The position numbers and the translations under genes were made by a program. DNA of 64,000 nt from Daejeonella oryzae DSM 19973 (lineage in GTDB: Bacteria; Bacteroidota; Bacteroidia; Sphingobacteriales; Sphingobacteriaceae), in contig NZ_AUHA01000003.1 of the NCBI RefSeq assembly GCF_000422945.1, positions 620,001 to 684,000 on the forward strand, written 5' to 3'. Shown one piece after another: positions 13,814 to 40,441 of this stretch (positions within the stretch are counted from its first letter, which is position 1; the number at the start of each line of letters is the position of its first letter). The notes under the pieces are model-generated. The model made no database searches. It worked only from the letters and a program-made list of their open reading frames with translations, and had not been told where the DNA came from.

Positions 13814-14503
13814 TTATTTAGCTTCAAATTTGTATCCTACACCTTTAACAGTAGTTACGTACATTTCCCCAAGTTTTTCACGTAATTTCCGGATGTGGAC
13901 ATCGATGGTACGGTTAGTAACTACTACAGAATCTTCCCAGATGCTTTTCAAAATTACATCTCTTGTAAATACTTTTCCGGGCTTAGACGCAAGCAGGTAT
14001 AATAATTCAAATTCTTTTTTAGCCAATATAATTTTCTCACCTTTTTTGAATACGAGAAATGCATCCCGGTCAATAACAAGGTCAGCGATTTCCAGTTTAT
14101 TCTCGGTTACTTCTTCAGCCTGAGCATTTCTTCTCAAAATAGCGTTAATCCTGCTAATAAGTGACCGTGGCTTTATTGGTTTGGCTATGTAATCATCAGC
14201 GCCCACGTTAAAACCTGCAATTTCAGAATACTCTTCGCTCCGGGCAGTTAAAAAAACCATGAACGTATTCTTAAATTCGGGCATGGAACGCAAAATCCGG
14301 CAGGCTTCTATCCCGTCCATTTTAGGCATCATGATATCTAAAATAATAAGATCCGGCAGAACTCGTTTGGCTTCAGAAACGGCTTCCTGTCCATTGGTAG
14401 CAGTATAAACCTGATATCCTTCTTTATTCAGATTGTATTCAATCAGTTCAAGGATATCCGGCTCGTCATCAACTATCAGGATCTTATGCTTAGCAATACT
14501 CAT
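13814..14503 (-). CDS. OmpR/PhoB-type response regulator, orphan
   Basis: At 229 residues it has a receiver domain (acidic pocket VDDEPD at 11-16, phosphoacceptor Asp 56 in LIILDIMMPKMDG, Thr in FLTAR, Lys in IAKPIKP) and a C-terminal winged helix (KEFELLYLLASKPGKVF, then VTNRTIDVHIRKLREKLG). It should bind DNA as a dimer on phosphorylation. No histidine kinase lies in this window next to it, so its partner is encoded elsewhere. Two copies of TGTTAAC spaced 22 bases apart lie upstream of its start and could be an autoregulatory direct repeat. The nearest named relatives would be PhoB/PhoP/RprY; I do not choose one. Confidence 0.92.
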   Translation of the reverse strand: MSIAKHKILIVDDEPDILELIEYNLNKEGYQVYTATNGQEAVSEAKRVLPDLIILDIMMPKMDGIEACRILRSMPEFKNTFMVFLTARSEEYSEIAGFNVGADDYIAKPIKPRSLISRINAILRRNAQAEEVTENKLEIADLVIDRDAFLVFKKGEKIILAKKEFELLYLLASKPGKVFTRDVILKSIWEDSVVVTNRTIDVHIRKLREKLGEMYVTTVKGVGYKFEAK

Positions 14504-14547: not shown

Positions 14548-14576
14548 TGTTAACTGTTTATTAAGATATTGTTAAC
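14548..14576. promoter_or_regulatory. TGTTAAC direct repeat, candidate response-regulator box
   Basis: TGTTAAC occurs at 14548-14554 and 14570-14576, exactly 22 bases apart (two helical turns), between the response regulator and TlpA-like genes. OmpR/PhoB-type regulators bind direct repeats at about 11-base spacing, so an autoregulatory site is plausible. Confidence 0.35.
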
Positions 14577-22584: not shown

Positions 22585-23268
22585 CTACTTTAAATACTTT
22601 CCGCTTTCTAATAATTCCTTCCATCGGGCATAGCCCAATAAACTTAAATGTAAGCCGTCAACGGTATACTTTTTATCCATGCGCTTTTCAGCATCCAAAA
22701 ATGCCGGATACAAGTCTATAAGAGTAATTTTTTCTATTGCAACCAGCTCTTTTAGGGCTTTGTTCAGCCATAAAATGTGCTCCTCTTTATTATAATGATT
22801 TTTGAATTTATCATACGTATTATTGGTGGGAAGCATGGTGTGGAAATAGATTTTTGTTCTTGGTGAACCCGATTTAATTCTGCTAACAATCTTCCTGTAA
22901 TTCTCAAGAATAACCTCATCAGGAATATTCCTTGAAATATCGTTTACACCTATCAGGATAAAAACCTTAGAGGGTTTTCCTTCAATTACTTCGTCGAGAC
23001 GCTCCAATACACCGAAGGTTATATCACCGGATATGCCCCTGTTCTTAATATTTTTTCGGTTTAATAATTCAGACCATTCTGTACCGGCGGTGATACTGTT
23101 TCCCAAAAAAATTATATCCTTACGGGAATTTGGGTAAGATTTAAACTCATTTACCTTATTCTGAAAATTAGACGGCCTGAAGGTGCTGTCCCATTTAGCG
23201 GTTTGGGAAAACCCCGGAACAGCCATAAAAATACAGGTGATGACTAACACAAATTTCAAATAATTCAT
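22585..23268 (-). CDS. Secreted GDSL/SGNH hydrolase
   Basis: I chose the ATG at 23268 because it opens a signal peptide (MNYLKFVLVITCIFMAVPGF, cleaved near SQ); an ATG at 23280 adds four residues. SGNH blocks are complete: catalytic Ser in FLGNSITAG, Gly in NRGISGD, Asn in IGVNDI and the His of DGLHLS near the C-terminus. Family members are esterases acting on acylated lipids or sugars (platelet-activating-factor acetylhydrolase-like). It lies 14 bases after glpT on the same strand, at the end of the glp/SusCD locus, which suggests it could remove acyl groups from phospholipids or lysophospholipids to give glycerophosphodiesters. That role is inference. Confidence 0.85.
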   Translation of the reverse strand: MNYLKFVLVITCIFMAVPGFSQTAKWDSTFRPSNFQNKVNEFKSYPNSRKDIIFLGNSITAGTEWSELLNRKNIKNRGISGDITFGVLERLDEVIEGKPSKVFILIGVNDISRNIPDEVILENYRKIVSRIKSGSPRTKIYFHTMLPTNNTYDKFKNHYNKEEHILWLNKALKELVAIEKITLIDLYPAFLDAEKRMDKKYTVDGLHLSLLGYARWKELLESGKYLK

Positions 23269-23282
23269 TTTACAGATCATAA

Positions 23283-24641
23283 TTAAGATTTCAAATCAGG
23301 TTCAGTTTGCTGACTGGCAAGATGTATTTTTTCTCTTTTCCAGGTTAATAAGGTAAAGAAGATGGAAAGTAAACAGGCTAATATTAGAACAACAAAGCCC
23401 CCATCCCATCCCCATAAATCAACAACATAGCCCATGGCGATATTGGCGAATAAAGCACCGCCCATATACCCGAACAAACCCGTTAAACCTGCGGCGGTTC
23501 CTGCAGCTTTTTTTGGAACCAGGTCGAGCGCCTGAACGCCAATTAACATTACAGGTCCATAAATTAAAAATCCAATAACAATTAAAGCAATATTATCAAT
23601 TACAATATTACCCGGAGGATTTTTCCAGTAAACAACAACGGCCAGTAAAACCAATATCATGTATATAACAATAGCTGGTGCACGCCTTCCCTTAAATACT
23701 TTATCACTAATCCAGCCGCATAAAAGCGTACCCGGAATACCTGCATATTCATAAGCGAAATAAGCCCAGCCGGTTTCTTTAACTGAAAACCCTTTTGCTT
23801 CTTCCAGGTACACAGGTGCCCAGTCTAAAATTCCGTATCGTACCAGGTAAACAAATGCATTAGCAAATGCGATGTACCAGAGTATGCGGTTATTAAAAAC
23901 GTAATCAAAGAAGATTTGCCGGGCACTCAGCTCTTTTTCATGCTCCTCTGAATAATTATTGGGATAATCGTTTTTATATTTTTCAATGGGAGGCAATCCG
24001 CATGATTGAGGCGTATCCCTGATAAATAAATAGGCAATGAAAGCAAAAATAAGGGCAACCATTCCCGGGAAATACAATTTACTTTCCCAGTCTCCAAATA
24101 TGGCAATGGCTGCAATAGCAACGGGGCCGATCAAACCGCCTCCAACATTATGTGCAACATTCCATATTGACATTTTTGTTCCTCTCTCTTTGGTAGAAAA
24201 CCAGTGAACCATAACCCTTCCACTTGGTGGCCAACCCATTCCCTGAAACCATCCGTTAACGAATAATAACACAAACATGATTAATATCGAGCTTGTAGCA
24301 ATTGGCACCAAACCCATAAAAATCATGGTGAATGCGGATAATAATAAACCCGCTGTAAGAAAAGTTCGGGCATTACTTCGGTCAGAGACGTTGCCCATCA
24401 AAAATTTGCTTAATCCATAAGCAATGGAAACTCCCGATAAGGCTAAGCCTAATTCTCCCTTAGAATACCCTAAAGCAATCAGATCCGGCATAACCAGAGA
24501 GAAGTTTTTCCGAACCAGATAATAACCGGCATATCCCAAAAATATACCCAGAAAGACTTGTAATCTTAAACGTTTGTACTCGGGATCTATACGTTCTAAG
24601 GGCAGTTGTTTTGTATGAGGAGCAGGAGGAAAAAATTTCAT
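23283..24641 (-). CDS. glpT: Glycerol-3-phosphate:phosphate antiporter
   Basis: This 452-residue MFS protein matches the GlpT pattern along its length: [16 protein letters not shown] at residues 39-54, [51 protein letters not shown] and [15 protein letters not shown]. The residues known to be critical in E. coli GlpT, Arg45, His165 and Arg269, have counterparts here (Arg 44 in YLVRKNF, the His of VAHNVGGG, the Arg of [12 protein letters not shown]). It should import glycerol-3-phosphate in exchange for phosphate across the inner membrane. It lies just after glpQ (56 bases) as in the classic glpTQ pair, in reversed order. Confidence 0.95.
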
Positions 24642-24697
24642 TCAGGATTGGTTAGGGCTATGAAAATAAAAGGCAACAGCATTTCAAATAAAAAATT

Positions 24698-25603
24698 TTA
24701 TTGGTTAAATAAATCCGGATAATCAGAAATAATCCCATCAACCCCAAATGACTTTAAGCGAGTAATTTGCTGCTTGGTGTTTACTGTCCAGGGTATTATT
24801 TTTATTCCTTTTTCATGAACCTGTTTAACCAAATCGGAAGTAACCAGTTTTGAATTGGGACTATAAATGGTTGGTGTAAATCCCAATTCCGTAAGATTAT
24901 TTTTTAAGGAATTACTTTCTACCAAATAGGCGGTTTTTATATTGGGATATTTATCATGAAGTACACGCAATGTTCGCGGATCAAAAGATTGAATAATTAC
25001 CCATGGAGTGATTTTCTTTTTTTCTAAAACATCCATTAACAGTTTTACAAATTGCTCAGGCTCCGGATGGAAACGCTTGTCACCCTCTGGTTTGGATTTG
25101 GTCTCAATATTATAAAACACCTGAGGCTTTCCATTGCTTACCAGATAATTTTGTACCGAATCAATCAGTTGAGTTAAAAGGGGAATATGAACTTTTAACT
25201 TTTGCTGTTTTGGAAATTTATCATAAAACTTTGAACCTACATCAAACTTTTTAATTGCATCATAATCCATTTGATAGAATGCAAATTTCTCAGCTTCAGC
25301 TTTGGATATTTCTTTACCATCCACACTAAGCGTAAACAATGAATTTATATGATCATCATGAGATAAAATAACCTGATTATCCCGCGATATATGAACATCC
25401 ATTTCCAAAGTAGTAACTCCAAGTTGTATGGCTTTATACATTGCAGGAATAGTATTTTCCGGCATAAGTCCTCTTGCTCCGCGATGGCCTTCGGTATCAA
25501 AAGCGGGCAGAGCAGCCTGTTGAGCAGATTTTTGAATTTTACAGCTTCCTATCATCATGAATACGAATATAGCCGGTATAAATAATTGTTGCTTTAAAGT
25601 CAT
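24698..25603 (-). CDS. glpQ: Glycerophosphodiester phosphodiesterase lipoprotein
   Basis: GlpQ hydrolyses glycerophosphodiesters to glycerol-3-phosphate and an alcohol. The GDPD signature is clear: EGHRGARGLMPENT near residue 39 with the catalytic His and Arg, then TTLEMDVHISRDNQ with the Glu and Asp metal ligands, LSHD, and the C-terminal TVNTKQQI and VDGIISDYP. A lipobox MIGSC (Cys 21 from the ATG at 25603) places it in the membrane, probably facing the periplasm; an ATG at 25609 would add two residues. The neighbouring glpT exports the same logic: product uptake. At about 301 residues the length is normal. Confidence 0.94.
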   Translation of the reverse strand: MTLKQQLFIPAIFVFMMIGSCKIQKSAQQAALPAFDTEGHRGARGLMPENTIPAMYKAIQLGVTTLEMDVHISRDNQVILSHDDHINSLFTLSVDGKEISKAEAEKFAFYQMDYDAIKKFDVGSKFYDKFPKQQKLKVHIPLLTQLIDSVQNYLVSNGKPQVFYNIETKSKPEGDKRFHPEPEQFVKLLMDVLEKKKITPWVIIQSFDPRTLRVLHDKYPNIKTAYLVESNSLKNNLTELGFTPTIYSPNSKLVTSDLVKQVHEKGIKIIPWTVNTKQQITRLKSFGVDGIISDYPDLFNQ

Positions 25604-25671
25604 CTGCATTTTAATTGCTTATCTGTAAGTTTTGTATTCTATAGAGAATTGTAACCTTTTTATTTTTTATT

Positions 25672-27090
25672 TCAGGCATTTATTTTCTGTTCGTATTTGG
25701 TGCCAAAACGATCAGTTGCTACTACTTTCACCATTTTAATCTCGGGACTAAAATGAGCCATAAACAAATGGTCAGTTCTTGATGGCTCGGCAAAGGAACG
25801 CTTTAGCGGCAATTTATCACCTTTATATAATTTAACGGCCATCGGGTCAAATCCCATCACATTTTCGAGTACACCCATGGGCTTATCATCGGCCCACCAT
25901 TCCACTTTCCATTCCGGGTCCCAGTTCCATACATTGACCAGCAATCTTTTCTGATGACTAAGCTCTTCTATATCCAGACTGATCTGGTAATTTTTATCCA
26001 ATCCGGTAGCTTTGTAATACCATTTTAAATCGGTGCCTTCCACTTCATAAACTCCATATCCGCCCGGCGTTCCGTCTCCGCAAACAGGCCCGGTCCACCA
26101 AGCACCGCAAACTGTACCATGATTATGCTCATACACTCCGTTTTGAATAACATTCTTATTAAAGTGGGTATGTCCAGACATGATATGTACTTTCTTAAAA
26201 GGTTCGAGCAGTGCATATAAATCGGTATTATTATCTACTGAATTATGTACAGGTATATGAACTGAAATAATCAACAGATTATCTTTTGGAACCATTGACA
26301 AATCCTGCTTCAGCCAGTTAAGTTGCTGACGAGAAATATATCCATCGTAATTTCTGTCCTTGCCAAGATAACGCACATCATCCAAGACTACATAATGAAC
26401 TTTACCGCGATTAAAGGAATAGTATGTAGGACCGTAATTTAAACTAAACGTTTGATCTGAAGATTCATCTCCCCCTTTATTATAGTCCATATCATGGTTT
26501 CCCAAGACCTGGAAAAAAGGGATTCCCATACCTGCAACTGCCTCATTATATCTTTTAAATAGAGAATGCTCATCCCAAACCAAATCCCCTACTCCTATTC
26601 CGTGAAATAGAGCTTCAGATCCACTTTCTTCAATTAACCGGCGAACATCCGGTACAGATTGGCTAAGCATTAATTGAACATCCCGCTCATTTTTAACCTG
26701 AGGATCAGCCCATATAATAAAATTATGCTTCGAATCATCCGCTTTTAGAGGCGTTAATTCGAAATTACAGATCTGTTTTTTTTCATCAGTGAGTGTATGA
26801 TAATGTTTTGCAAGGCCGTTTTGTTGAGGGAAAGCGTATCCGGCAGGAACAGAAATAAAAACAAACCTTGCCAGCTCATGAAAAGGCATTTCATATTTTC
26901 CCCTTGAATTTGTTTTAACCACACTAAACCCGTCTGATACAACTACATTGCTGAGTCTTTTACCAAAAGACCTAACGGTTCCTTTTATTTTTTTTCCGGA
27001 AGTTCTGACAAAAGCAAATGTTTCATTAGCCGACAGCATAAAGCCGCCGGACAACAGAAACATATTTTGTATAAAAGCTCTTCTTTTCAT
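25672..27090 (-). CDS. Secreted calcineurin-like phosphoesterase with N- and C-terminal beta domains
   Basis: The N-terminus MKRRAFIQNMFLLSGGFML has a twin-arginine-like start, so export is likely. Residues about 30-120 form a carboxypeptidase-regulatory-like beta domain. The metallophosphatase core shows WADPQVKNERDVQ near residue 127, GVGDLVWDEHSLF near 167, VLGNHDMDYNKGG near 194, SVHIPVHNS near 275 and MSGHTHFNKN near 302. A C-terminal beta domain follows to residue 472. This architecture is common in Bacteroidota phosphoesterases. Placed beside glpQ it could release phosphate from glycerol phosphates or act on diesters; the specificity is unknown. Confidence 0.87.
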   Translation of the reverse strand: MKRRAFIQNMFLLSGGFMLSANETFAFVRTSGKKIKGTVRSFGKRLSNVVVSDGFSVVKTNSRGKYEMPFHELARFVFISVPAGYAFPQQNGLAKHYHTLTDEKKQICNFELTPLKADDSKHNFIIWADPQVKNERDVQLMLSQSVPDVRRLIEESGSEALFHGIGVGDLVWDEHSLFKRYNEAVAGMGIPFFQVLGNHDMDYNKGGDESSDQTFSLNYGPTYYSFNRGKVHYVVLDDVRYLGKDRNYDGYISRQQLNWLKQDLSMVPKDNLLIISVHIPVHNSVDNNTDLYALLEPFKKVHIMSGHTHFNKNVIQNGVYEHNHGTVCGAWWTGPVCGDGTPGGYGVYEVEGTDLKWYYKATGLDKNYQISLDIEELSHQKRLLVNVWNWDPEWKVEWWADDKPMGVLENVMGFDPMAVKLYKGDKLPLKRSFAEPSRTDHLFMAHFSPEIKMVKVVATDRFGTKYEQKINA

Positions 27091-27156
27091 CAGAATAGAT
27101 TTGTGATTTGAGATAATTTGTTTGAGATAAAGTAATTGAGCAACGTATCTAAATTT

Positions 27157-28443
27157 CTAATTAGAATAAATTGCAAAATCTTCAATACTTAACCGCCCAT
27201 TAAAAATTGTGGTATTATTAGTTGTACCCAAGCCTAATTTATTAACCCTGAAACGTACAGGTCCTGAAATATCCATTAAAAAAGTTGCTGTTTTTGATCC
27301 TTCAGGAGCATCAGATATGGTATCTCCAATTTTAGTCCAGGTAATTCCAGCGTCTGTTGAATATTCTAACTGCCAAGTACTTTTAGCATCTGTATAATAG
27401 GCTCCATAAGAAACAGTCACTTTTGAAGCCCCGTTTGGAACATCAAAATTCATTTGCACATACGCATCTACTGATAAATTTTGCTGTATTCTAACGGATT
27501 GCTTTCCCGCCGGATTAAATCTGTCTCTGCCGGAAGTAGTTCCCAGTATGGCCTGAAATAATTTCCAGCTTCCTGTTTTGCCTGTAATATTATTATCAAT
27601 GGCAGCCATATTATAACTTGATTTAATTGCGGCATCCGGACTCTCAAAATCTTCTGGAAAATTTGCATACAGAGGACCGCTGGCATTTAATACATCAGCA
27701 ATACTGCGCATTCTAACCTGCTTAACAATATTCTGAGCGGTGCTTCCGCTTCCGTACATGGGAATGCCGATAAAGGTTGCGTTGGCAGGAACTCTGTTAT
27801 TTGCAAATGTGGCTGAAGCCTGTGTATGTAAATTAATTACTACTGAATCGGGTACACCGTCATTCAATCTTTTATCACCGCTGTATGTATCTCCGGATAC
27901 AGGTGCCGGTGTAATGTCAGCTCCAACTATTCTAACCAAAGTGCTTTGGTAACTATCAAAATTCTGATTCAGTTCTCCTAAAGAAACCTGTTTCGCAATT
28001 ACGGTTGCATTACTGCTGATCTTAACTATGTCAGCAATATTAACTCCTGTTATAGCTAATGTACCTTGGTTTTTAGTAAGCAAACCTGTACTCACATTTA
28101 CAAGTACAGAATCACCAATCACGTATGGAATATTGGCTGTTTCACCAACATTTAACGTAATGCCTCTGGTACGACCGCGTTTTAATTGCTGCAAAACAAT
28201 GGTGCCTTTTGGTAAATTTTGAGAGTTTGCATCCGAAATAACTATTCCGCTGATTTTGCTGGCTCCAGATAACATTTCTGTACTTAATGAAACATCAGAA
28301 CCTTTATACAATCCCTGAACATCTTCTACAGCTATATACGGACTCAATACACCTTCTGAAGGATTTGGATCATCTTTCATACAAGCTGTAAAGACAAACA
28401 TGCTTGTTAACACAGCTAAAAATGCTAAATATTTATTTTTCAT
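27157..28443 (-). CDS. DUF5689-type surface lipoprotein
   Basis: I chose the ATG at 28443 because it opens a lipoprotein signal with a lipobox FTAC (Cys 21); an in-frame ATG at 28476 would add 11 residues. Residues about 40-250 resemble the DUF5689 domain (repeats of ISGIVISDANSQNLPKGT type, with OB-like strands), and residues about 265-428 form a jelly-roll-like module beginning NFPEDFESPDAAI and ending RLSIEDFAIYSN, as in choice-of-anchor proteins. It lies 49 bases after susD. Such lipoproteins accompany SusCD pairs and probably sit on the cell surface to bind or process the substrate. The family call is by recall of pattern. Confidence 0.8.
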   Translation of the reverse strand: MKNKYLAFLAVLTSMFVFTACMKDDPNPSEGVLSPYIAVEDVQGLYKGSDVSLSTEMLSGASKISGIVISDANSQNLPKGTIVLQQLKRGRTRGITLNVGETANIPYVIGDSVLVNVSTGLLTKNQGTLAITGVNIADIVKISSNATVIAKQVSLGELNQNFDSYQSTLVRIVGADITPAPVSGDTYSGDKRLNDGVPDSVVINLHTQASATFANNRVPANATFIGIPMYGSGSTAQNIVKQVRMRSIADVLNASGPLYANFPEDFESPDAAIKSSYNMAAIDNNITGKTGSWKLFQAILGTTSGRDRFNPAGKQSVRIQQNLSVDAYVQMNFDVPNGASKVTVSYGAYYTDAKSTWQLEYSTDAGITWTKIGDTISDAPEGSKTATFLMDISGPVRFRVNKLGLGTTNNTTIFNGRLSIEDFAIYSN

Positions 28444-28492
28444 AATTTCTTCTTTTTGATATGTTTTTAGAATCAATATTCACACGCAGGAA

Positions 28493-29983
28493 TTAATTCT
28501 TTTGCCACCACATTTTTGTATTTAAATCATCTGAGCCCATTGCTGCAACGGCTGCATTATAGTTGGCTCCGTTTAAAGACTGCAGAAATATTGGGTAGTA
28601 TAACCGTGAAGGCATTTCTCCGTTATTTCTCAAACCCTCACCTTTTGGCAAGGTCGGCTTACCTGTTCTGCGGTATTCAAACCATTGCTGAAAATCAGTA
28701 AAAAACATATCATAATATTTCTGAGTCATGATTTTTTCCATTTTTACGTCTTCAAGTTCGCTATCATTCCATGCGAGTTCAGGATTGATTAAATAATCTG
28801 CAGGAACCGCATACCCCCAAAGTGTAATCCCATTAATTACGCCTGAATCATAATATGTTTTCGGACTTCCGGATATATATCCTTTAAGCGCCGCTTCAGC
28901 AAGGATAAACTGTAATTCAGGATAGTTCATGATGTTGCCAAGTAAAGCTTCTGTTTTTAAGGCAACCGGATACGTTGATCTGGCTTCCGGAACTTTAGTT
29001 TGCTCATAACCGCTTGGAATTCCTTCATACACATTCTGAGATTTTGTAGCCCATCTTTCTATTCTTGGGTCTCCCCATTCTTTCAGGTTATTTACAAAAA
29101 ATTGCCCTAAAGAAATTGAGCCATTCCAATCATAATCTCTCCATAAATAAAAGGGACTAAACAGAGGTGAAACCCCGGTAAATTTTACAATTGCAGATTC
29201 TGAATTATTGGTGAAAATTGGATAATTAGCGCTGTTTGTTTGCGCAATATCCCTGATTTTATCAGCCGGGGTCATTCCATTCGCAACTAATTCATTTTTG
29301 GCAGATACCCGCATCAGCAGTCTTAAATACAATGAATTGCCGAATTTTCTCCAGCTCGATGCATACGCGGTAGCCGAAGTTGCATTACCAAACAAAACAT
29401 CGTTCTTAATCTGGTCTAATGTTAATGTTGTTGTAGGAGTTTTCAGCAAGTTGTTTGCAGAATCCAGTTTGGCGAAAATATCTGTGTAAATATCTTTTTG
29501 TGCGTCAAACTTTGGGGTGAGCAAACCTTCTCTACCGCGATTAGCTTCTGAATAAGGAATGTCGCCAAACGTATCGGTAAGTAATGAATAAACCCATGCC
29601 TGGCAAATCAAACCAATGGCCATATAGGTTTTGCTACCGGTTGCTTCACCGCTATTATAGATATCTTTAAAATTGGTTAATTTAAGATACCAGTTGTTCC
29701 ATAAATAATCTGATTCGTTTGGACGGATGACATAACGATGTACTTCATCTCCGTCAATGCGGGTTACATGATCCTGCATCAGATCACCATTTAATCTGTG
29801 GCTGCGATTTAAATTAATTGCAAGCGTTTCATATACTGCCGGACCTATCAACTGATCTGGTGTGGCATTGGTACTATTATTAGGGTCGATATTTAATTCT
29901 CCCAATTCTTTCGTACACGATGAGATGCTGATCATCCCGGCAAGGGCTACTATAGAAAGAATATATATGTGGATCTTTTTCAT
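28493..29983 (-). CDS. SusD/RagB-type nutrient-binding outer-membrane lipoprotein
   Basis: This 496-residue protein has the SusD-like_2 layout: a lipobox ISISSC (Cys 23), then the conserved TKELGELNIDPNNS and TPDQLIGPAVYETL near the start, TPR-like helices through the middle (IGLICQAWVYSLLTDTFGDI), and a C-terminal segment with the DPELQF-like PELQFILAEAALKG. SusD proteins cap the SusC barrel and capture substrates at the cell surface. The gene lies 21 bases after susC on the same strand. The close glp genes suggest a glycerophosphate-type ligand, which is inference; classical ligands are glycans. Confidence 0.93.
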   Translation of the reverse strand: MKKIHIYILSIVALAGMISISSCTKELGELNIDPNNSTNATPDQLIGPAVYETLAINLNRSHRLNGDLMQDHVTRIDGDEVHRYVIRPNESDYLWNNWYLKLTNFKDIYNSGEATGSKTYMAIGLICQAWVYSLLTDTFGDIPYSEANRGREGLLTPKFDAQKDIYTDIFAKLDSANNLLKTPTTTLTLDQIKNDVLFGNATSATAYASSWRKFGNSLYLRLLMRVSAKNELVANGMTPADKIRDIAQTNSANYPIFTNNSESAIVKFTGVSPLFSPFYLWRDYDWNGSISLGQFFVNNLKEWGDPRIERWATKSQNVYEGIPSGYEQTKVPEARSTYPVALKTEALLGNIMNYPELQFILAEAALKGYISGSPKTYYDSGVINGITLWGYAVPADYLINPELAWNDSELEDVKMEKIMTQKYYDMFFTDFQQWFEYRRTGKPTLPKGEGLRNNGEMPSRLYYPIFLQSLNGANYNAAVAAMGSDDLNTKMWWQKN

Positions 29984-30004
29984 GAAATTTTATAATTATG
30001 ATGA

Positions 30005-33000
30005 TTAAATACCTAAGCTTAAATTAAGTCCCATGCTTCTTGTAGCAGGAAACTGACCTATTTCAAACCCGCTGGTTATACTTCCGTTATTTAATGTACC
30101 AAACTCCGGATCGTAAGAAGGCCAGTTACTAATGATGAACAGATCGCGGCCATAAAGACCTAAGGTTGCTTTTTGAAGCTTTAATTTTTTAAGAATATTG
30201 GGTTTGAAGCTGTAATCAAAACGAACCTCACGAAGCTTAATATAATCTGTGCTAAACAAATTGGATTCTACATTATCCCTTTTATAGTGTTCAGAATAAT
30301 ATGTCCAAATATTTTCAGCAACCACATCGTTGGGGCGGTAAGAACCGTCAGCATTTTGAATAACACCATTTCCGATTATACCATTATAGCGGCCCGGCAA
30401 AGTCTTGGTTAATTTTCCGCCCTCTGCTGCCGCAGAATGCGTGAGTGAATATGCCTTTGCGCCAAACTGGCTGTCGAACAATACATTTAAACGCAATTGC
30501 TTGTACCTGAATTCAGTTCCTAAACTCCCTTTCCAATCGGGTGTGGTATTGCCTAAAAGTTGCTGATTCTGATCTAAAATAGGATAACCCTGTTCGTTAT
30601 AAACAATTTGTCCGTTTGGTGAACGCAAGTATCCAAGGCCATAAATTGCCCCCATGGTACCGCCCGGACGAGCTTCAATAGATCCGCGTCCGCCAGGACC
30701 GGTTTGTAAAACCAGTGTTGAAATGCTGTCGGCAATAGTTTCTACCTGGTTTCTGTTAGCTGTAAATGTTCCGTAAATATCCCAGTTAAATCCTGATTTG
30801 CTTTTTACCGGAGTTCCTTTAGCTTCGATTTCTATACCTCTGTTTTTAACTAACCCTGAGTTCAGAATAATTGAAGACCAACCCGAAGACCTGTCAATCG
30901 GCGTACTAACAATTTGATCGGTTGTATTATTTTGGTATACCGCAATGTCAAAACTCAACCTGTCTTTGAACAATCTCAAATCAGCACCGAACTCTATACT
31001 GGTTGTCAGCTCTGATTGCAAATCAGGATTAGCAATGGCCGTCGGATTAGATAATCCGGATGGAAAGCTTGATTCAGGTCGGTATGTATAAGATGTGAAA
31101 TACGTAAAAGTTCTGGAATTACCCACCTGCGCCCATGAACCTCTTAATTTAACGAAAGAAAATGCCTCCGGTAATTTAAAAGCATCAGAAAGAATAGCGC
31201 TTAAATTAACCGATGGATAAAAGAAACCAATTTTTTTATCTACACCCGGAGTTGCCAGCGTACTGCTCCAGTCGTTACGACCAGTTATATCCAGGAAAAG
31301 AAAATCATCGTAGCTAAATGAAGCTAATCCATAAAAGCTGTTTACACCAAAATCAGACCGGTATGGGTATGATAAGGGAACATCTTTGCTGTTAGCAAAA
31401 GAAAATACTCCAGGGTAATTTAATCGCTCAGCTCTTAATTCATCTTTAAGATATCTGTTACGCATGGTGCTTCCACCTACTGCTACATTTCCCTGAAATT
31501 TTTCTGACACTTTTTTACCGTAGCGGATCAGGAAATCACTGTTTAATTCCTGTGAAAAAATGTTTTGAGTGCGAAACATTCCTTCTTTAAACTTCTCGGT
31601 ACTTTTTGGGCGTTGCTGTGAACGAGCTTCGTAGGAAAAGTCAACTGCAGTACGCATCATCACACTTAAATCCTTCGTAAAATTATAGGTTGCCTGCACA
31701 TTACCCAACACCTGATTGCGGTTAGATCTGTTTAGCATTTCATTTGCAATGAGGTATGGATTATCAATTAAAGAACTAAATGGGCCAACCTGACTAATGC
31801 CTTCCTGACCGGGAACCCAATAATCTTTATACCAGTCTAAACTGGCGTTGGGAACCTGTGCATTGATAAAATACATGATTGTTTGATTGTTGTATCCGGT
31901 AGAGGGCAAATTATCACTGAATTTATTTGTATAATTTACTTTCGTGGATATCTGAAGCTTATCAGTCAGTTTATTGCTGATTGAAGCTGCAATTGAATTC
32001 CGGCTGTAACCTGTATTTGGTATGATCCAGGTGTTTTGAAGATTTGTGTAAGATACACGAGCATTGGTTTTTTCATTTCCACCATCCACAGTTACTGTAT
32101 TGGTAAAAGTTTTTCCGGTTTCAAAAAAACCTGAACGGTTATCAGTATACGGAACCCAGGGAGTTCGTACAGTCGACCGGGTTAAGGTTAATGGATCATA
32201 TTGAAAATATTGTTCATCCGCATTAAATCTTCTTCCCCAGGCAGAACTTGTACTGCGTGTACTTGCTCCGTCTACACCTGCATTGTAAGAGTAATAATTC
32301 TCTCCGGTAAGTCCCTGACCATATTCATACTGGTAATCGGGCATCCGCGAAACAGATTCCATAGCCGTATTGGAATTAATAGTAACTCCAATACCTTTTG
32401 CTTTAGGCCGGCCTGATTTGGTAGTAATCACAATGGCACCACCTGCGCCACGTGCGCCATAAAGTGCTGTAGCTCCGGGCCCTTTTAAAACAGTTACACT
32501 TTCAATATCATCCGGATTTATATCGCTTAATCCTGAACCAAAATCAGCGGGAGACTCTGTACCTAAATAAGCATTGCTTCCCGTGCCGGTGATTCGGCTT
32601 CCTCCTCCCATCACAATTCCATCCACAACAATTAATGCTTCATCTGTACCTGTTAAAGAACCTTCACCACGAAGAATTATTCTGTTGGATCCTGAAGGAC
32701 CGCCACCTGATTTAAGCATATTTAAACCTGCAACTTTTCCCGATAAAGCATTTGTCCAGTTATTTGAAGGTGCTTCTGAAATATCTTCTCCTTTTATAGT
32801 CGACTGGGCATAACCCAGAGATTTTTCCTCCCGTTTTATTCCCAGGGCTGTTACTACTACTTCGTTAAGAGCTTTGGTATCATCTTTTAAAACAACATTA
32901 ATAACATTATTTCCAGCATAAGGAATTTCAACAGTAAGGTATCCCAAACTTCGGAATTCTAATACGTCAGCTGTTGTAAATGCTCTTCCGGCTGAGATTG

Positions 33001-33337
33001 TATAACGACCTTCTGCATCTGTAAATGCACCTTTAGTAGTTCCTTTAACCGTTACTGTAACACCCGGAACTGTTTGCCCGGCGGCATCTCTTACAATTCC
33101 GCTTACCGGTGTTTGAGCCTTAACATTTCCATACAAAAGAAACATAGTAAATACCAGCGCAAGTGCTGGTTTACAAAAAGGCTTTTTGAAAATTACATTT
33201 AAACTGTTTGTTAAACTTTCCCAAATCCGGATGGTGCCGAATCTGCTTTTTATATCGGGCATATTGAAAAATGCGGAGTAATATCCGGATAGGTTTTTTT
33301 GGTTCCCTTCCCTGATAAAAATGTAGTTTTTGTTCAT
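30005..33337 (-). CDS. SusC/RagA-type TonB-linked outer-membrane transporter
   Basis: At 1110 residues it has an unusually long pre-signal stretch of about 50 residues before the hydrophobic signal KPALALVFTMFLLYG, cleaved near NVKAQ. A CarboxypepD-reg-like beta domain follows (SGIVRDAAGQTVPGVTV), then the plug with VVVTALGIKREEKSLGYA, SGKVAGLNMLKSGGG and the TonB-dependent RIILRGEGSL, and a 22-strand barrel to the C-terminal aromatic-free ending LNLSLGI. The ATG at 33337 is the first in frame; internal starts after it would cut the signal. It pairs with the following SusD gene. Predicted to import glycerophosphodiesters or other phosphate esters, by context only. Confidence 0.94.
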   Translation of the reverse strand: MNKNYIFIREGNQKNLSGYYSAFFNMPDIKSRFGTIRIWESLTNSLNVIFKKPFCKPALALVFTMFLLYGNVKAQTPVSGIVRDAAGQTVPGVTVTVKGTTKGAFTDAEGRYTISAGRAFTTADVLEFRSLGYLTVEIPYAGNNVINVVLKDDTKALNEVVVTALGIKREEKSLGYAQSTIKGEDISEAPSNNWTNALSGKVAGLNMLKSGGGPSGSNRIILRGEGSLTGTDEALIVVDGIVMGGGSRITGTGSNAYLGTESPADFGSGLSDINPDDIESVTVLKGPGATALYGARGAGGAIVITTKSGRPKAKGIGVTINSNTAMESVSRMPDYQYEYGQGLTGENYYSYNAGVDGASTRSTSSAWGRRFNADEQYFQYDPLTLTRSTVRTPWVPYTDNRSGFFETGKTFTNTVTVDGGNEKTNARVSYTNLQNTWIIPNTGYSRNSIAASISNKLTDKLQISTKVNYTNKFSDNLPSTGYNNQTIMYFINAQVPNASLDWYKDYWVPGQEGISQVGPFSSLIDNPYLIANEMLNRSNRNQVLGNVQATYNFTKDLSVMMRTAVDFSYEARSQQRPKSTEKFKEGMFRTQNIFSQELNSDFLIRYGKKVSEKFQGNVAVGGSTMRNRYLKDELRAERLNYPGVFSFANSKDVPLSYPYRSDFGVNSFYGLASFSYDDFLFLDITGRNDWSSTLATPGVDKKIGFFYPSVNLSAILSDAFKLPEAFSFVKLRGSWAQVGNSRTFTYFTSYTYRPESSFPSGLSNPTAIANPDLQSELTTSIEFGADLRLFKDRLSFDIAVYQNNTTDQIVSTPIDRSSGWSSIILNSGLVKNRGIEIEAKGTPVKSKSGFNWDIYGTFTANRNQVETIADSISTLVLQTGPGGRGSIEARPGGTMGAIYGLGYLRSPNGQIVYNEQGYPILDQNQQLLGNTTPDWKGSLGTEFRYKQLRLNVLFDSQFGAKAYSLTHSAAAEGGKLTKTLPGRYNGIIGNGVIQNADGSYRPNDVVAENIWTYYSEHYKRDNVESNLFSTDYIKLREVRFDYSFKPNILKKLKLQKATLGLYGRDLFIISNWPSYDPEFGTLNNGSITSGFEIGQFPATRSMGLNLSLGI

Positions 33338-33475
33338 AATCTGGAAATTATATTAGGTTGTAGCTTTGGTTCAATTTTATTTAGTATCTGGCTTATTGTG
33401 ATAAATCGATTACTTATATTTTTAAATCATTTTATTCATTTTCCGATAGATCTCGATTGTAATTCTTTGGTTTTA

Positions 33476-34207
33476 TTAAATTCTTAGCCATAAATAAAGC
33501 AGCGCTGCCAATGCCGATCCAACTAAAGGACCTGCAACCGGAATCCACGAATAATTCCATTCGCTGCTTCCTTTTCCGTTTATCGGTAACAAGGCATGCA
33601 TAATTCTCGGTCCCAGATCGCGGGCCGGATTAATGGCATATCCCGTGGTACCTCCCAATGAAAGTCCGATGGCCCAAACCAGAAATGCGACTGGTATTGC
33701 CCCAAGAGAACCTAAACCAATAGGCGTTTTGTCATTACCCATTTCGGCATTGGTGAAATAGAAAATCACAAAAATGAGCACGAACGTGCCCAAAACTTCA
33801 CTGAAAAAATTAGAGGAATTATTTCTGATTGCAGGCGATGTAAAAAATGCCGCAGATTTTAAACCCTTATCGGGAGTTTTTAAAAAGTGATCTTTATAAA
33901 CCAGCCATACAGCCACAGCACCGAGCATTGCTCCGGTAAATTGAGCCAGGATAAATAAAGGGACTTTTGCCCAACTAAATTTCTGTGCCATTGCCAGAGC
34001 AAGAGTTACAGCGGGATTTAAATGAGCTCCGCTAAAAGGTGCGGCAATTACTACTCCAACAAATACGGCCAGAGCCCATCCGGTAGTTATAACTATCCAG
34101 CCTCCGTTATTTCCTTTGGTACCGTTTAATACCACATTTGCAACAACTCCATTACCAAGAAGTATTATAAAGAATGTCCCGATCATTTCGGCGGCAAATT
34201 GGGTCAT
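33476..34207 (-). CDS. glpF: Glycerol facilitator (aquaglyceroporin)
   Basis: This 243-residue MIP channel has both NPA boxes: GAHLNPAVTLALA near residue 60 and YAINPARDLGPRI near residue 192. The second box is followed by Arg-Asp, the sign that separates glycerol facilitators from water-only aquaporins. It conducts glycerol down its gradient into the cytoplasm, where GlpK traps it. It lies 34 bases after glpK on the same strand, the usual glpFK pairing in reverse order. Six membrane helices are visible. Its stop codon is 138 bases from the susC start. Confidence 0.94.
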   Translation of the reverse strand: MTQFAAEMIGTFFIILLGNGVVANVVLNGTKGNNGGWIVITTGWALAVFVGVVIAAPFSGAHLNPAVTLALAMAQKFSWAKVPLFILAQFTGAMLGAVAVWLVYKDHFLKTPDKGLKSAAFFTSPAIRNNSSNFFSEVLGTFVLIFVIFYFTNAEMGNDKTPIGLGSLGAIPVAFLVWAIGLSLGGTTGYAINPARDLGPRIMHALLPINGKGSSEWNYSWIPVAGPLVGSALAALLYLWLRI

Positions 34208-34241
34208 ATAATATTAATTTAAGATTACGTTTTAATTAAAT

Positions 34242-35738
34242 TTATGATTCAGTCCATGCAATAACGCCCTTTACAGCCTTATGCCAGCCCTTAATTAATT
34301 CATCCGTGTTGTAATTTGTATCCGGTTCAAAGCTTTTATTAATCTCCCATTGCTGCTGAATATCCTCTACACTTTTCCAGTATCCTATTCCCAGTCCAGC
34401 CAGGTAGGCAGCTCCAATAGCCGTTACCTCAACCATTTGTGGCCTTACGACCCGTGCTTTTAAAACATCAGCCTGAAACTGCATCAGAAGATCATTTGCT
34501 GTTGCTCCTCCATCCACCCGAAGTTCCTGAATAGATATCCCTGAATCTGCTTCCATCGCTTTTAGCACTTCCAGAGTTTGAAAAGCAATACTTTCCAAGG
34601 CAGCCCTGGCAATATGCGCATCGCTTGTTCCCCTTGTGATTCCGAAAATTGTACCCCTTGCATATTGATTCCAGTGTGGTGCGCCCAAACCCGCAAATGC
34701 CGGAACGAGGTAAACTCCCCCGCTATTTTCAACTTTAGCTGCAAGTTTTTCCACTTCGCTGGAGTTGGATATTATTTTGAGTTCGTCCCGCAGCCATTGT
34801 ACTACGGCTCCGGCTATAAAAATGCTTCCTTCAAGAGCGTACTGAGTATGATCGCCAATTTTCCAGGCGATAGTGGTAATCAGATTATTTTTAGATAGAA
34901 CTGGCTTGTCGCCGATATTCATCAGCATAAAACAGCCTGTACCATAGGTATTTTTAACCATGCCTGGTTGCGTGCAAAGCTGACCAAATAAAGCAGCCTG
35001 CTGATCTCCGGCTACCCCGCTTATCGGTATTTTTATTGCAAACAGATTAGCCGAAGTTTCTCCGAAAACTTCGCTGGATGATTTTACTTCAGGCAGCATA
35101 CCAGCCGGAATAGAAAATAATTTTAAAAGTTCTTCATCCCATGCAAGTGTGTTGATATTAAATAACAGGGTTCGTGAAGCATTACTCACATCAGTAACAT
35201 GCACTTTTCCAGAGGTCAGGTTCCATATCAGCCAGGAATCAATAGTTCCAAAAGCCAATTGGCCCGCTTCTGCTTTTTCTTTAGCTCCGGGTACATTATC
35301 TAAAATCCATTTTATTTTAGTTGCCGAAAAGTAAGCATCGATAACCAGCCCTGTTTTCTCACGAATCATTTGTTCCAGTCCCTGTGATTTTAGTTCATCA
35401 CAAAAGGAAGCGGTTCTGCGATCCTGCCAAACAATAGCGTTGTATATTGGTTGCCCGGTTGCCCGATCCCAGACAACGGTTGTTTCCCGCTGATTGGTAA
35501 TCCCGATAGAGGCTATATCTTTTGCATGTAAATTGGCTTTTAAAATAGCTTCTGCAGCTACTGAAACCTGACTTGACCAGATTTCTCTGGCATCATGCTC
35601 TACCCATCCCGACTGAGGATATATCTGTGTAAATTCTTTTTGGGCTACTGATACCAAACCGCCTTTGTGGTTAAATACAATTGCCCTTGAACTTGTAGTT
35701 CCCTGATCTAATGCCAGAATGAATTTCTCTTTACTCAT
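34242..35738 (-). CDS. glpK: Glycerol kinase
   Basis: This FGGY kinase phosphorylates glycerol to sn-glycerol-3-phosphate with ATP. I chose the ATG at 35738 (498 residues), which opens [19 protein letters not shown]; an ATG at 35768 would overlap the end of glpD. The family signatures are present: [37 protein letters not shown] and the FGGY-type [21 protein letters not shown] ending, quoted here in shortened form ([15 protein letters not shown]). It is followed by glpF. Distance to glpD is 10 bases, so the two are co-translated. Length is normal for GlpK. Confidence 0.96.
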
Positions 35739-35748
35739 TTTAATCTGA

Positions 35749-37374
35749 TCAATTAATAACCGGTTCATCGAAAATCTTCTTATCTGCGGAATAAGGTTCC
35801 AGTAGATACTGGCTGGCTAATGTCTCAAAATTTGATATCTGAGATTTTTCCCATTCTAAATCTAATTTTAGCTCTTTAGCCATCAAGGCAGCTACTTTCG
35901 GAGCCATTTCTATGGCAGCCCGTGCGTCTAAAAACAGAACCCTTAGTCTTCTGGCAAGAACGTCTTCTATATTGCGGGCCATTTCGTTGCGAACAGCCCA
36001 TATTACTTCTGCCTGAATGTAGGGCATGCGCTCATGAAGTTTATCTCCTAACTGAGGCTCCACATCAACTAATGCTGTAATATGAATTTTATCACTTCCA
36101 TAAATTGAAAGTGGGTTTTCATCATTTTGATTCAGAAATCCATGGATTTTTAAATTGGAAGTGTTACAGTCAACAGGATTTAAACCGGCCACCTTAATAA
36201 TTCTGTCGATGGTATCTTCTGCCATTTTTCGGTACGTGGTCCATTTCCCGCCGGTAATGGTTAGTAATCCGGATTCGGATACTATTATTTTATGGCTGCG
36301 TGAAATTTCTTTGGTGCTATCAGAATCGTTATCTGTGGCAGCCAAAGGCCGCAAGCCGGCGAATACACTTAACACATCTTTGCGGGAAGGAGCCGGAACC
36401 AGGTACTTGCTTACTGTTTCCAGAATAAATTCAATTTCCTCTTCCAGAGCGACAGGCTCGAGGCTATGATTCTGCAATGGCGTATCCGTAGTTCCAAGCA
36501 AAATATGATCATGCCATGGAACGGCAAATAATACTCTTCCATCTGGCGTTTTTGGAATCATCAATGCTTTTTGGCCATTAAGAAAAGATTTATTCAATAC
36601 CAGATGTACACCCTGACTTGGTTTAACCAACGGCTTTCGGGCGGGAGTATCCATATCAAGAATTTCATCCACAAAAACCCCTGTAGCATTTATTACGGAT
36701 TTTGAATTCAGTTTATATTCCCTGTTATTTTCAAGATCATACGCTGTAACCCCGATTATTTTTCCATTTGGTCCTTTAAGTAATCCCTTAACCTGAACAT
36801 AATTTAAAAGAACCCCTCCTTTTTCTGCACAGGTCTGAGCCAGATTAACAGCCAGCCTTGCATCATCAAACTGCCCATCATAATATTCTATTCCGCCCTT
36901 TAATCCCTTGCCGTTTATACCCGGCAATAATTGCAGTACTTTTTCTTTACCCAGATAATTTGAAGTTCCAAAGCGGAATCTGGCAGCCATCCAGTCGTAT
37001 AATTTTAATCCTACAAGATATTTTAATTCTGAAAACCAATCGTAGCAGGGAATTATAAAAGCTTGCTTTTTTACAATATGAGGGGCATTATTTAATAAAC
37101 GACCACGCTCTTTCAGTGCTTCGTAAACTAATGAAATATCACCCTGAGCCAAATACCGAACTCCCCCATGCACCAGTTTGGTACTTCGGCTGGAGGTGCC
37201 TTTTGCAAAATCAGACTGCTCCAGTAACAAGGTTTTAAATCCTCTGGCTGCCGAATCGAGGGCGGCGCCTAAACCTGTTGCTCCACCACCTATAATAATT
37301 ACATCCCAAATATTTTCCTGAGCAAGTTTTGCTAAAAATTGCTCACGATTAAAAAAATTGTTTTTATTCTTCAT
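35749..37374 (-). CDS. glpD: Aerobic glycerol-3-phosphate dehydrogenase
   Basis: This 541-residue FAD enzyme (from the ATG at 37374; an ATG at 37422 would add 16 residues and run through the operator palindrome) oxidises glycerol-3-phosphate to dihydroxyacetone phosphate at the inner membrane, passing electrons to quinone. The FAD motif [16 protein letters not shown] opens the protein, followed by [19 protein letters not shown], the classical GlpD signature. The DAO fold continues through [15 protein letters not shown] and [13 protein letters not shown]. It is the first gene of the glp/SusCD block and is preceded by the divergent glpR promoter region. Confidence 0.96.
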
Positions 37375-37388
37375 CCTCTTCGTTCCTA

Positions 37389-37413
37389 CTTTCGTTTTCT
37401 CATAAAACGAAAG
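37389..37413. promoter_or_regulatory. Candidate GlpR operator between glpD and glpR
   Basis: Perfect 10-bp arms CTTTCGTTTT and AAAACGAAAG with a 5-base spacer lie 15 bases before the glpD ATG. DeoR-family repressors commonly bind such CTTTCG/CGAAAG-type inverted repeats. Binding by the adjacent GlpR is inferred from position. Confidence 0.6.
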
Positions 37414-37545
37414 CATATACAATTATATAAAAACAAAAAGGAATAAAAGGAAAAATTTATAAATCTTAAAAAAAACTTTTCAACACATAAAAAAAATAAA
37501 AATTATCAAATTCTATAGTAAATTAGCTTCCCAAATCAAATCAAA

Positions 37546-38310
37546 ATGCTAAACCTTGCAGAGAGACATCAAATTATATTGCAAAAAATTAATCAGGAAG
37601 GCTATATAAACGTTGTTGATTTATGCAAAGAATTACAAGTTTCTTCTGTAACTATTCGAAAGGACCTGAAATTACTGGAAGACAAAAATCTTCTGTTTAA
37701 AACTCATGGTGGAGCTACCTTAAAAAGTCCTTACACGGCCGACAGACCCGTTAATGTGAAAGAAAAGCTCCAATCATCCGAAAAAATGAAAATCGGAGAA
37801 GCAGCCGCAAGACTGATTGAACCGAATGATTCAATTATTATCGGTTCCGGAACATCTGTACTGGCATTGGCGAAAAGTATACATCCGGTACAAAGTCTCA
37901 TGATAATTACGTCAGCATTGAACGTGGCACTTGAACTTATGAAGCATGCCGATATTGAAATTATTCAACTGGGCGGAATTTTAAGAAAAAGCTCCTCTTC
38001 GGTTATGGGACCCTATGCTGAAACTGTTCTGGGAGATTTTTTCTGCAGTAAGCTATTTTTGGGTGTAGACGGGATAGATTTAGAATTCGGACTCACCACT
38101 ACCAATGTATTTGAAGCACATTTAAACCGGCAAATGATGGCAGCTTCTCAAAAAACCATCATCCTGGCAGATTCTACTAAATTCGGAAAGCGTGGGTTTG
38201 GAAAAATCTGCAAGCTGGAAGAGATTGATCATATTATTACAGATAAAGGAATTTCCAAACATATAGTTGATACTTTAGAAGGAATGGGTATCCTGATGAC
38301 TATCATTTAA
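37546..38310 (+). CDS. glpR: DeoR-family repressor, GlpR type
   Basis: This 254-residue regulator has an N-terminal DeoR helix-turn-helix (LAERHQIILQKINQEGYINV, then VSSVTIRKDLKLLEDKNLL followed by KTHGGATL) and a C-terminal DeoRC sugar-phosphate-sensing domain with the inducer-site motifs GSGTSVLALAKSI near residue 104 and LFLGVDGID and ILADSTKFGKRGF. It is divergent from glpD across 171 bases and the likely ligand is glycerol-3-phosphate. Naming it GlpR rests on this context. It should repress the glp/SusCD block via the palindrome at 37389. Confidence 0.9.
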   Translation: MLNLAERHQIILQKINQEGYINVVDLCKELQVSSVTIRKDLKLLEDKNLLFKTHGGATLKSPYTADRPVNVKEKLQSSEKMKIGEAAARLIEPNDSIIIGSGTSVLALAKSIHPVQSLMIITSALNVALELMKHADIEIIQLGGILRKSSSSVMGPYAETVLGDFFCSKLFLGVDGIDLEFGLTTTNVFEAHLNRQMMAASQKTIILADSTKFGKRGFGKICKLEEIDHIITDKGISKHIVDTLEGMGILMTII

Positions 38311-40440: not shown

Positions 40441-40441
40441 A

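Follow-up and report, generated by a model that had tools for sequence, protein, structure and literature searches.

We analysed a stretch of 64,000 nucleotides from Daejeonella oryzae DSM 19973 (contig NZ_AUHA01000003.1, positions 620,001 to 684,000; this whole stretch is referred to as the window) and focused on a block of eleven genes at 22585..38310, in which a SusC/SusD pair (SusCD) lies amidst genes for the breakdown of glycerol-3-phosphate. Four lines of evidence strongly support a link of this SusCD with the glycerol-3-phosphate route that is not coincidental: i) the association is conserved among relatives; ii) it is retained despite rearrangement and SusCD exchange; iii) relatives share a putative operator; and iv) related SusCD pairs have phosphoesterases as partners. 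We consider it fairly probable that the block serves glycerophosphodiester utilisation, and since the importer resides in a recurrent block with genes for glycerol-phosphate breakdown, glycerol phosphate esters, and not a plain sugar polymer, are probably what it feeds on. Gene content, conserved association, the motif at glpD and susC in relatives and the catalytic residues were obtained directly by computation, and from there we infer the ligand, the role of SusCD as uptake route and the order of the steps.

Gene content and conservation of the block

The open reading frames (ORFs) and the family models agreed with the content given by a first-pass annotation of the window, which had described a SusCD pair together with GlpT, GlpQ, GlpF, GlpK, GlpD and a divergent regulator (Table 1). 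Read from the regulator inward, the confirmed order of the 11 ORFs is: the DeoR-type regulator, glpD, glpK, glpF, susC, susD, the DUF5689 gene, the metallophosphoesterase gene, glpQ, glpT and the SGNH gene, with glpD through SGNH all on the - strand and the regulator divergent on the + strand. The genes glpD and glpK overlap by 20 bp and the subsequent gaps measure 34, 138 (glpF-susC), 21, 49, 66, 62, 56 and 2 bp, only the glpF-susC gap exceeding 66 bp; this spacing favours a single transcript for the run from glpD to SGNH. As had been noted before, the Pfam and NCBIfam profiles identified none of the eleven genes as a glycoside hydrolase, polysaccharide lyase or sulfatase, and no sugar catabolism genes were found in the block. 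The signal sequences of SGNH, phosphoesterase and GlpQ were seen again, as judged by eye without a predictor: GlpQ, the DUF5689 protein and SusD carry lipoboxes, the phosphoesterase has a twin-arginine-like start and SGNH an ordinary signal peptide.

We then inspected the surroundings of GlpT in the family, where it is rare (61 of 301 genomes), by fetching about 20 kb around each of 61 GlpT genes and using the window for its own locus. Of 20 genomes in the source genus, four have GlpT, invariably at about 4 kb or less from a SusD of this type. In the family as a whole this SusD type was found within 12 kb of GlpT in 46 of the 61 loci and, by ORF annotation, always on the same strand (46/46), while four further loci (L060-L063) have SusCD farther along the same run (total 50/61); because the placement of some stretches was chosen in the direction of a known SusD match, both fractions hold within the fetched DNA. 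The partners recur to different extents (GlpQ in 57, DUF5689 in 43, phosphoesterase in 39 and SGNH in 29 of the 61), and GlpT, SusD, GlpQ, DUF5689, phosphoesterase and SGNH occur all together in 22. A full block is also carried by a named environmental relative, Pedobacter quisquiliarum CGMCC 1.15343 (L164). As a control, 11 stretches around further SusCD loci of the window's genome were inspected, two of which overlap; none of these partners was present in any of them. A scan of the class recovered GlpT in 11 of 395 genomes, five of which are family members already counted; at the six GlpT loci outside the family, four of which are on contigs shorter than 12 kb, no SusCD was found.

The proposal that the same gene order should recur in relatives held for the association (50/61), but not for a fixed order, which varies (L059, L060, L070, L043): GlpT precedes SusC in L059, GlpQ-GlpT lie far upstream in L060-L063, and glpFK are convergent in L039, L042 and L067. 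On a SusD tree of 100 rows, made with a quick method, the label 'GlpT adjacent' changes 18 times, and at least 14 of the changes are forced by well-supported branches; judged by this tree, the SusDs of the GlpT-linked loci come from different clades and the association persists regardless. Between the window and its congener G004 (L043) the identities are 92% for GlpT, 87% for GlpR, 85% for GlpK and GlpF, 73% for GlpD and the phosphoesterase, 69% for GlpQ, 68% for SGNH and 71 and 74% for two flanking genes, against 48% for SusC and 38% for SusD, and the G004 block is without DUF5689. SusC-SusD(-DUF5689) thus appears to have been swapped in place between the two. Their SusDs fall in different well-supported sets of the tree, the window's row being on a long branch; the best relative of the window's SusD by score (G067, L057) belongs to a full block.

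Putative operator and related SusCD loci without GlpT

A direct-repeat-like motif of 22 bp, approximately GTTTCnTTTTATTTCGTTTTnT, was derived by expectation maximisation from 21 glpR-glpD intergenic regions. The seeds were picked from TTTC-rich words and the test therefore rests on upstream regions outside the training set. There, a score of at least 13 was reached before susC (21/76), glpQ (5/25), glpT (1/18) and glpK (1/8) and, among the comparison genes, before 3 of 580 unassigned genes (two of the three share the intergenic region of susC or glpD) and 0 of 36 phosphoesterase genes; these counts are not independent, because close relatives are included and a few loci were counted twice (e.g. 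L052 and L157). Four of the loci with the motif at susC have SusC-SusD-DUF5689 without any of the enzymes (L127, L128, L134, L139), and two others have GlpQ but lack glpTFKDR (L118, L136). The motif was absent or weak in most of the loci in which susC follows within 200 bp of glpF, as in the window, or follows a FecR-type gene. The consensus occurs twice in the genome of the window (reversed control 0), once before glpD (Table 1) and once inside pstB, and none of the 13 distinct susC upstream regions of the control stretches from this genome reached 13 (best 11.9). The DeoR-type regulator would act on this putative operator and a single promoter, that of glpD, probably drives the operon of the window, with susC predicted to be reached by read-through, given the tight spacing and the glpF-susC gap without a box. 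The motif at both glpD and susC in relatives served as a computational proxy for the co-induction of SusCD and glp genes on which the first-pass annotation had made the link depend. TTTC-repeat operators are associated with AgaR-type regulators, a connection that a literature look-up did not bring up. An inverted-repeat GlpR operator was recovered in at most 4 of the 21 glpD promoters, where the shuffled maximum was 3, and scans for sigma-70 promoters and terminators stayed at the shuffled level; neither was used.

The related SusCD pairs without GlpT were studied in 40 stretches chosen by rank, not at random (plus L034), of which three without a SusD ORF were dropped and 38 counted. A phosphoesterase gene, called by BLAST to metallophosphoesterase, GlpQ, PF04185, PF01663, PLD or NAGPA queries on the same strand, was found within 6.5 kb in 25 of the 38, and 3 of the 38 have glp genes. 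According to the first-pass annotation the link would be coincidental if homologous pairs consistently stood beside glycan enzymes without glp genes, which was not what these neighbourhoods showed. Eight of the remaining ten have the motif before susC (score 19.2 in L127, L128, L134 and L139, 13.6 in L034, 13.0 in L133, 10.7 in L138 and 9.2 in L131, the last barely exceeding its own shuffles); L123 and L144 have neither phosphoesterase or glp genes nor the motif and adjoin genes for a SASA esterase and sulfatase-modifying-factor/BNR proteins. In six congeners (L031, L035, L036, L037 and L044 from one genome, L038, L040) a related SusCD is accompanied by a beta-propeller/PF04185 protein of about 812 aa, assigned with Pfam in L031 and by clustering in the others, and in L041, also of the source genus, by a PF01663 protein. 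A FecR-type gene lies near susC in 26 of the 40 GlpT-less stretches (L107-L146; e.g. L109, L122, L135, L146; Pfam on L135 only), mostly with a partner of about 200 aa that is presumed to be an extracytoplasmic function sigma factor.

Proteins, proposed route and alternatives

The catalytic parts of the enzymes look active, judging from their alignments. GlpQ aligns over its full length with 3ch0 (3.4e-72) and with Bacillus subtilis GlpQ (5t91), and the catalytic His/Arg/Glu/Asp/His/Glu are retained in the alignment to 5t91 (positions as in PMC7086022). The metal-binding motifs of the phosphoesterase (GD, GNHD, H, GH.H) were present in 10 of 10 aligned sequences, and its structural model (mean pLDDT 85.6) was matched by Foldseek, over the central domain, to Rv0805, the glycerophosphodiesterase GpdQ and purple acid phosphatases; among PDB sequences no relatives of the phosphoesterase were found and the DUF5689 protein gave noise only. 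The nearest solved chains of SGNH (about 3e-51) are 6njc (sialate O-acetylesterase / lysophospholipase L1) and 7pzg (lysophospholipase L1), and therefore this enzyme likely strips acyl or acetyl groups. As for the complete glycerol-3-phosphate route that had been claimed, GlpT and GlpK exceeded their cut-offs and GlpD has the DAO and DAO_C domains, but with the NCBIfam GlpD model PRK12266 it reached 294 bits, below the cut-off of 360; its true start is perhaps an ATG 48 bp downstream. The regulator belongs to the DeoR family and scored better with the AgaR model (NF040755, 237 bits, below the cut-off of 260) than with the GlpR/DeoR models. Both names therefore rest partly on position, and GlpR is used here by position only.

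The SusD of the window matches PF12771/PF12741 only and not PF07980, with 5j5u and 3ejn as solved relatives. The DUF5689 protein starts with C-M-K-D-D in the alignment, which fits K-(D/E)2, the surface lipoprotein export signal (LES) described in PMC5080379. Its modelled fold (mean pLDDT 69.8, poor in the C-terminal part) gave weak Foldseek matches, some OB-fold-like, from which no conclusion was drawn. DUF5689 proteins in the SusE position (L154-L168 and the window) have a common N-terminal domain and at least two types of C-terminal part, of which the window has the short and not the long type. The proteins reported as essential for natural transformation in Riemerella include one with DUF5689 (PMC8459023); DNA is likewise a phosphodiester polymer and, by this analogy, the parallel may be more than coincidence.

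Taken as a glycerophosphodiester utilisation locus, the block would operate as follows. The surface lipoproteins DUF5689 and SusD would capture a molecule with glycerol-phosphate diester bonds, which SusC would import with energy from TonB. In the periplasm, the SGNH esterase would strip acyl groups, the GpdQ/Rv0805-like phosphoesterase would open the phosphodiester and GlpQ would release glycerol-3-phosphate, which GlpT would bring in against phosphate and GlpD would oxidise to dihydroxyacetone phosphate, while free glycerol would enter via GlpF and GlpK and the DeoR-type regulator would control the whole from one promoter. Within this class of ligands, deacylated or lyso-phospholipid head groups are a tentative first candidate that we put somewhat short of an even chance; they fit the SGNH esterase and the phospholipase D (PLD)-type genes present in 9 of the 61 GlpT loci (Pfam on two). 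Glycerol-phosphate polymers are possible but doubtful, and would fit the NAGLU, GH36 and NAGPA genes in or beside some blocks as well as the teichoicase activity reported for B. subtilis GlpQ. A specific and on the whole unlikely form of the latter is a Gram-negative locus for teichoic-acid-type polymers, in which SusCD and DUF5689 would import poly-glycerol-phosphate oligomers from dead Gram-positive neighbours, SGNH would remove ester groups, NAGLU, GH36 or NAGPA of some relatives would remove sugar decorations, phosphoesterase and GlpQ would cut the chain and GlpT would import the monomer; it would fit both the decoration-removing enzymes of relatives and the requirement of GlpQ for undecorated glycerol (PMC7086022).

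Several points weigh against a glycerophosphodiester importer. A porin might suffice for the passage of small glycerophosphodiesters, with no need of SusCD. In the window, the glpF-susC gap is without the operator (score 5.0; shuffled 95% level 12.8), and the motif is missing despite a longer gap before susC and nearby glp genes in L065, L074, L082, L104, L106, L121, L167 and L168. Such a SusCD was not found nearby in 11 of the 61 GlpT loci, one of which (L091) has a distant SusC (30%), and GlpT therefore does not require this SusCD. The SusD of L123, which at 58% is among those most like that of the window, adjoins sulfatase-modifying-factor/BNR and SASA esterase genes and no phosphoesterase was found near it, and the GlpT-less sample was, as said, a ranked one. 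Finally, glycosidase genes occur in or beside the block of some relatives: GH36 in L059, L103 and L167 and NAGLU type in L064, L067 and L071. The earlier designation 'not a glycan' may therefore be too strict for the family as a whole. The first-pass interpretation is partly supported: the tie of SusCD to the glycerophosphate route stands (46/61, operator motif, tree), and the ligand is a candidate.

An alternative that we regard as unlikely is general scavenging of organic phosphorus, in which SusCD would import many phosphate esters for their phosphate, with glycerol as by-product. The phosphoesterases beside related pairs are indeed varied (PF04185, PF01663, PLD, NAGPA, metallophosphoesterase), and low-phosphate induction was described for other SusCD pairs (PMC8115612). 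TTAA repeats with 11-bp spacing were moreover found upstream of susC in many relatives. A strict triple repeat occurs at 13 places in 8 of 12 genomes (reversed control 0), 10 of the 12 having been selected from loci whose susC showed related repeats: 3 places, in as many genomes, before a PhoB-like response regulator, 2 before histidine kinases, 4 before susC and 4 before other genes. The match in the window (Table 1) and those before apparently the same regulator in L174 and L175 (orthologous by eye) are likely autoregulatory boxes, judged from their placement, and the repeats before susC suggest phosphate control in some relatives. However, no 11-bp-spaced repeat was found before the window's susC, the window's response regulator stays below both PhoB model cut-offs, and the block has a carbon route and a regulator of DeoR type, not PhoB type.

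We regard as rather improbable a glycan cargo that bears glycerol-phosphate or phosphodiester-linked sugars as decoration, with the glp genes acting on this decoration only. Besides the GH36 and NAGLU genes mentioned above, some relatives have NAGPA and Gfo/Idh genes in or beside the block and a GH2 gene adjoins the GlpT-less L107; however, the window's block is without a glycosidase, and between susC and SGNH on the strand of GlpT the only assigned glycosidase-type genes of the 61 loci are GH36 (L103) and NAGPA (L083), with a few unassigned ORFs remaining. That a SusCD pair for unrelated cargo was merely inserted between glpF and the glpQT genes is very improbable and already disfavoured: the 11 loci without SusCD and the partnerless SusD of L123 are outweighed by the same-strand association, the shared operator motif, the recurrent gain or retention on the SusD tree and the control stretches without partners (0/11).

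Directly beyond the regulator (38350-42505, - strand) lie a ComEC-like gene, with the TIGR00360 domain over and TIGR00361 under the cut-off, and a gene for a protein of 687 aa without a Pfam or NCBIfam match.

Table 1. Positions in the window of the genes of the block, the putative operator and the phosphate-related features
Feature	Position	Strand	Evidence
PhoB-like response regulator	13814-14503	-	under both PhoB model cut-offs
Triple 11-bp-spaced repeat	14549-14576	-	only strict match in the window's genome; 45 bp before response regulator
SGNH/GDSL esterase, signal peptide	22585..23280	-	Lipase_GDSL_2 PF13472 5e-29
GlpT, glycerol-3-phosphate transporter	23283..24641	-	TIGR00712 734 bits, cut-off 632.55
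GlpQ-type glycerophosphodiester phosphodiesterase, lipobox by eye	24698..25609	-	GDPD PF03009 8.7e-40
Calcineurin-like phosphoesterase (MetallophosN/C), secreted, Tat-like start by eye	25672..27090	-	PF16371/PF00149/PF16370
DUF5689 lipoprotein, SusE position	27157..28443	-	PF18942 4.9e-19
SusD-like_2 surface lipoprotein	28493..29983	-	PF12771 9.2e-99
SusC/RagA TonB-dependent outer-membrane transporter	30005..33337	-	TIGR04056 585 bits, cut-off 368.25
glpF-susC gap	33338..33475	-	putative GlpR box not found, score 5.0
GlpF-like MIP channel	33476..34207	-	PF00230; TIGR00861 185.5 over 171.25; putative glycerol specificity
GlpK glycerol kinase	34242..35768	-	TIGR01311 756.8 bits, cut-off 590.35
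GlpD glycerol-3-phosphate dehydrogenase	35749..37422	-	PF01266 (DAO) + PF16901 (DAO_C)
Putative operator before glpD, for the DeoR-type regulator	37433..37453	-	motif consensus match
Divergent DeoR-family regulator, GlpR by position	37546..38310	+	PF00455/PF08220

Relation to known systems

SusCD pairs are abundant in the Bacteroidetes and are mostly taken as glycan importers, the RagAB-type peptide importers being an exception. The block resembles the Sus-type polysaccharide utilisation loci in having SusC, SusD, a surface lipoprotein in the SusE position, secreted hydrolases and a local regulator, and differs from them in that no carbohydrate-active enzyme and no sugar catabolism were found in it. 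With the enterobacterial glp regulon (GlpT, GlpQ, GlpK, GlpD, GlpF and GlpR) it shares the inner-membrane and periplasmic steps and a DeoR-family regulator. Additional in the block are an esterase, another phosphodiesterase and an importer at the outer membrane that is driven by TonB, and its regulator is closer to the AgaR model than to the GlpR/DeoR models. According to PMC7086022, the GlpQ teichoicase of B. subtilis acts on lipid head groups and on poly-glycerol-phosphate without substituents, freeing sn-glycerol-3-phosphate; the window's GlpQ is like it in family and catalytic residues, a likeness drawn from sequence, and differs in being, by prediction, a lipoprotein that is encoded together with SusCD in the operon of a Gram-negative bacterium.

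The closest precedent is that of Lidbury et al. (2020), who described Flavobacterium SusCD (PusCD) pairs beside phosphodiesterases, induced by phosphate depletion, and proposed that these are probably directed at lipid head groups and nucleic acids (PMC8115612). Both systems have SusCD beside secreted phosphodiesterases in place of carbohydrate-active enzymes, organic phosphate being the proposed cargo of PusCD. However, PusD1 and PusD2 are of the PF07980/PF14322 type and the SusD of the window is PF12771, the former are induced by phosphate depletion while DeoR-type control is predicted for the latter, and DUF5689, SGNH and a carbon route for glycerol-3-phosphate are further features of the window's locus. 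Neither 'glp' nor 'glycerol' appears as a word in the main text of PMC8115612, and among the matches listed in the open-licence PMC literature no title or abstract opening points to this locus. The extension of SusCD cargo that the first-pass annotation had put forward is thus partly pre-empted, be it with another SusD type: a SusCD for organic phosphorus has already been proposed in print, and the window's locus is a further form and not a new principle, a variant of the PusCD logic because of its other SusD type, glycerol-3-phosphate carbon route, DUF5689, SGNH and DeoR-type regulator. Its SusCD-DUF5689 type, which is widespread and is tied to phosphodiester enzymes and glycerol-3-phosphate catabolism through gene position and the operator motif, constitutes a defined set of importers with directly testable cargo and gives DUF5689 a functional context, and the locus would explain how these bacteria gain access to lipid- or cell-wall-bound glycerol phosphate.

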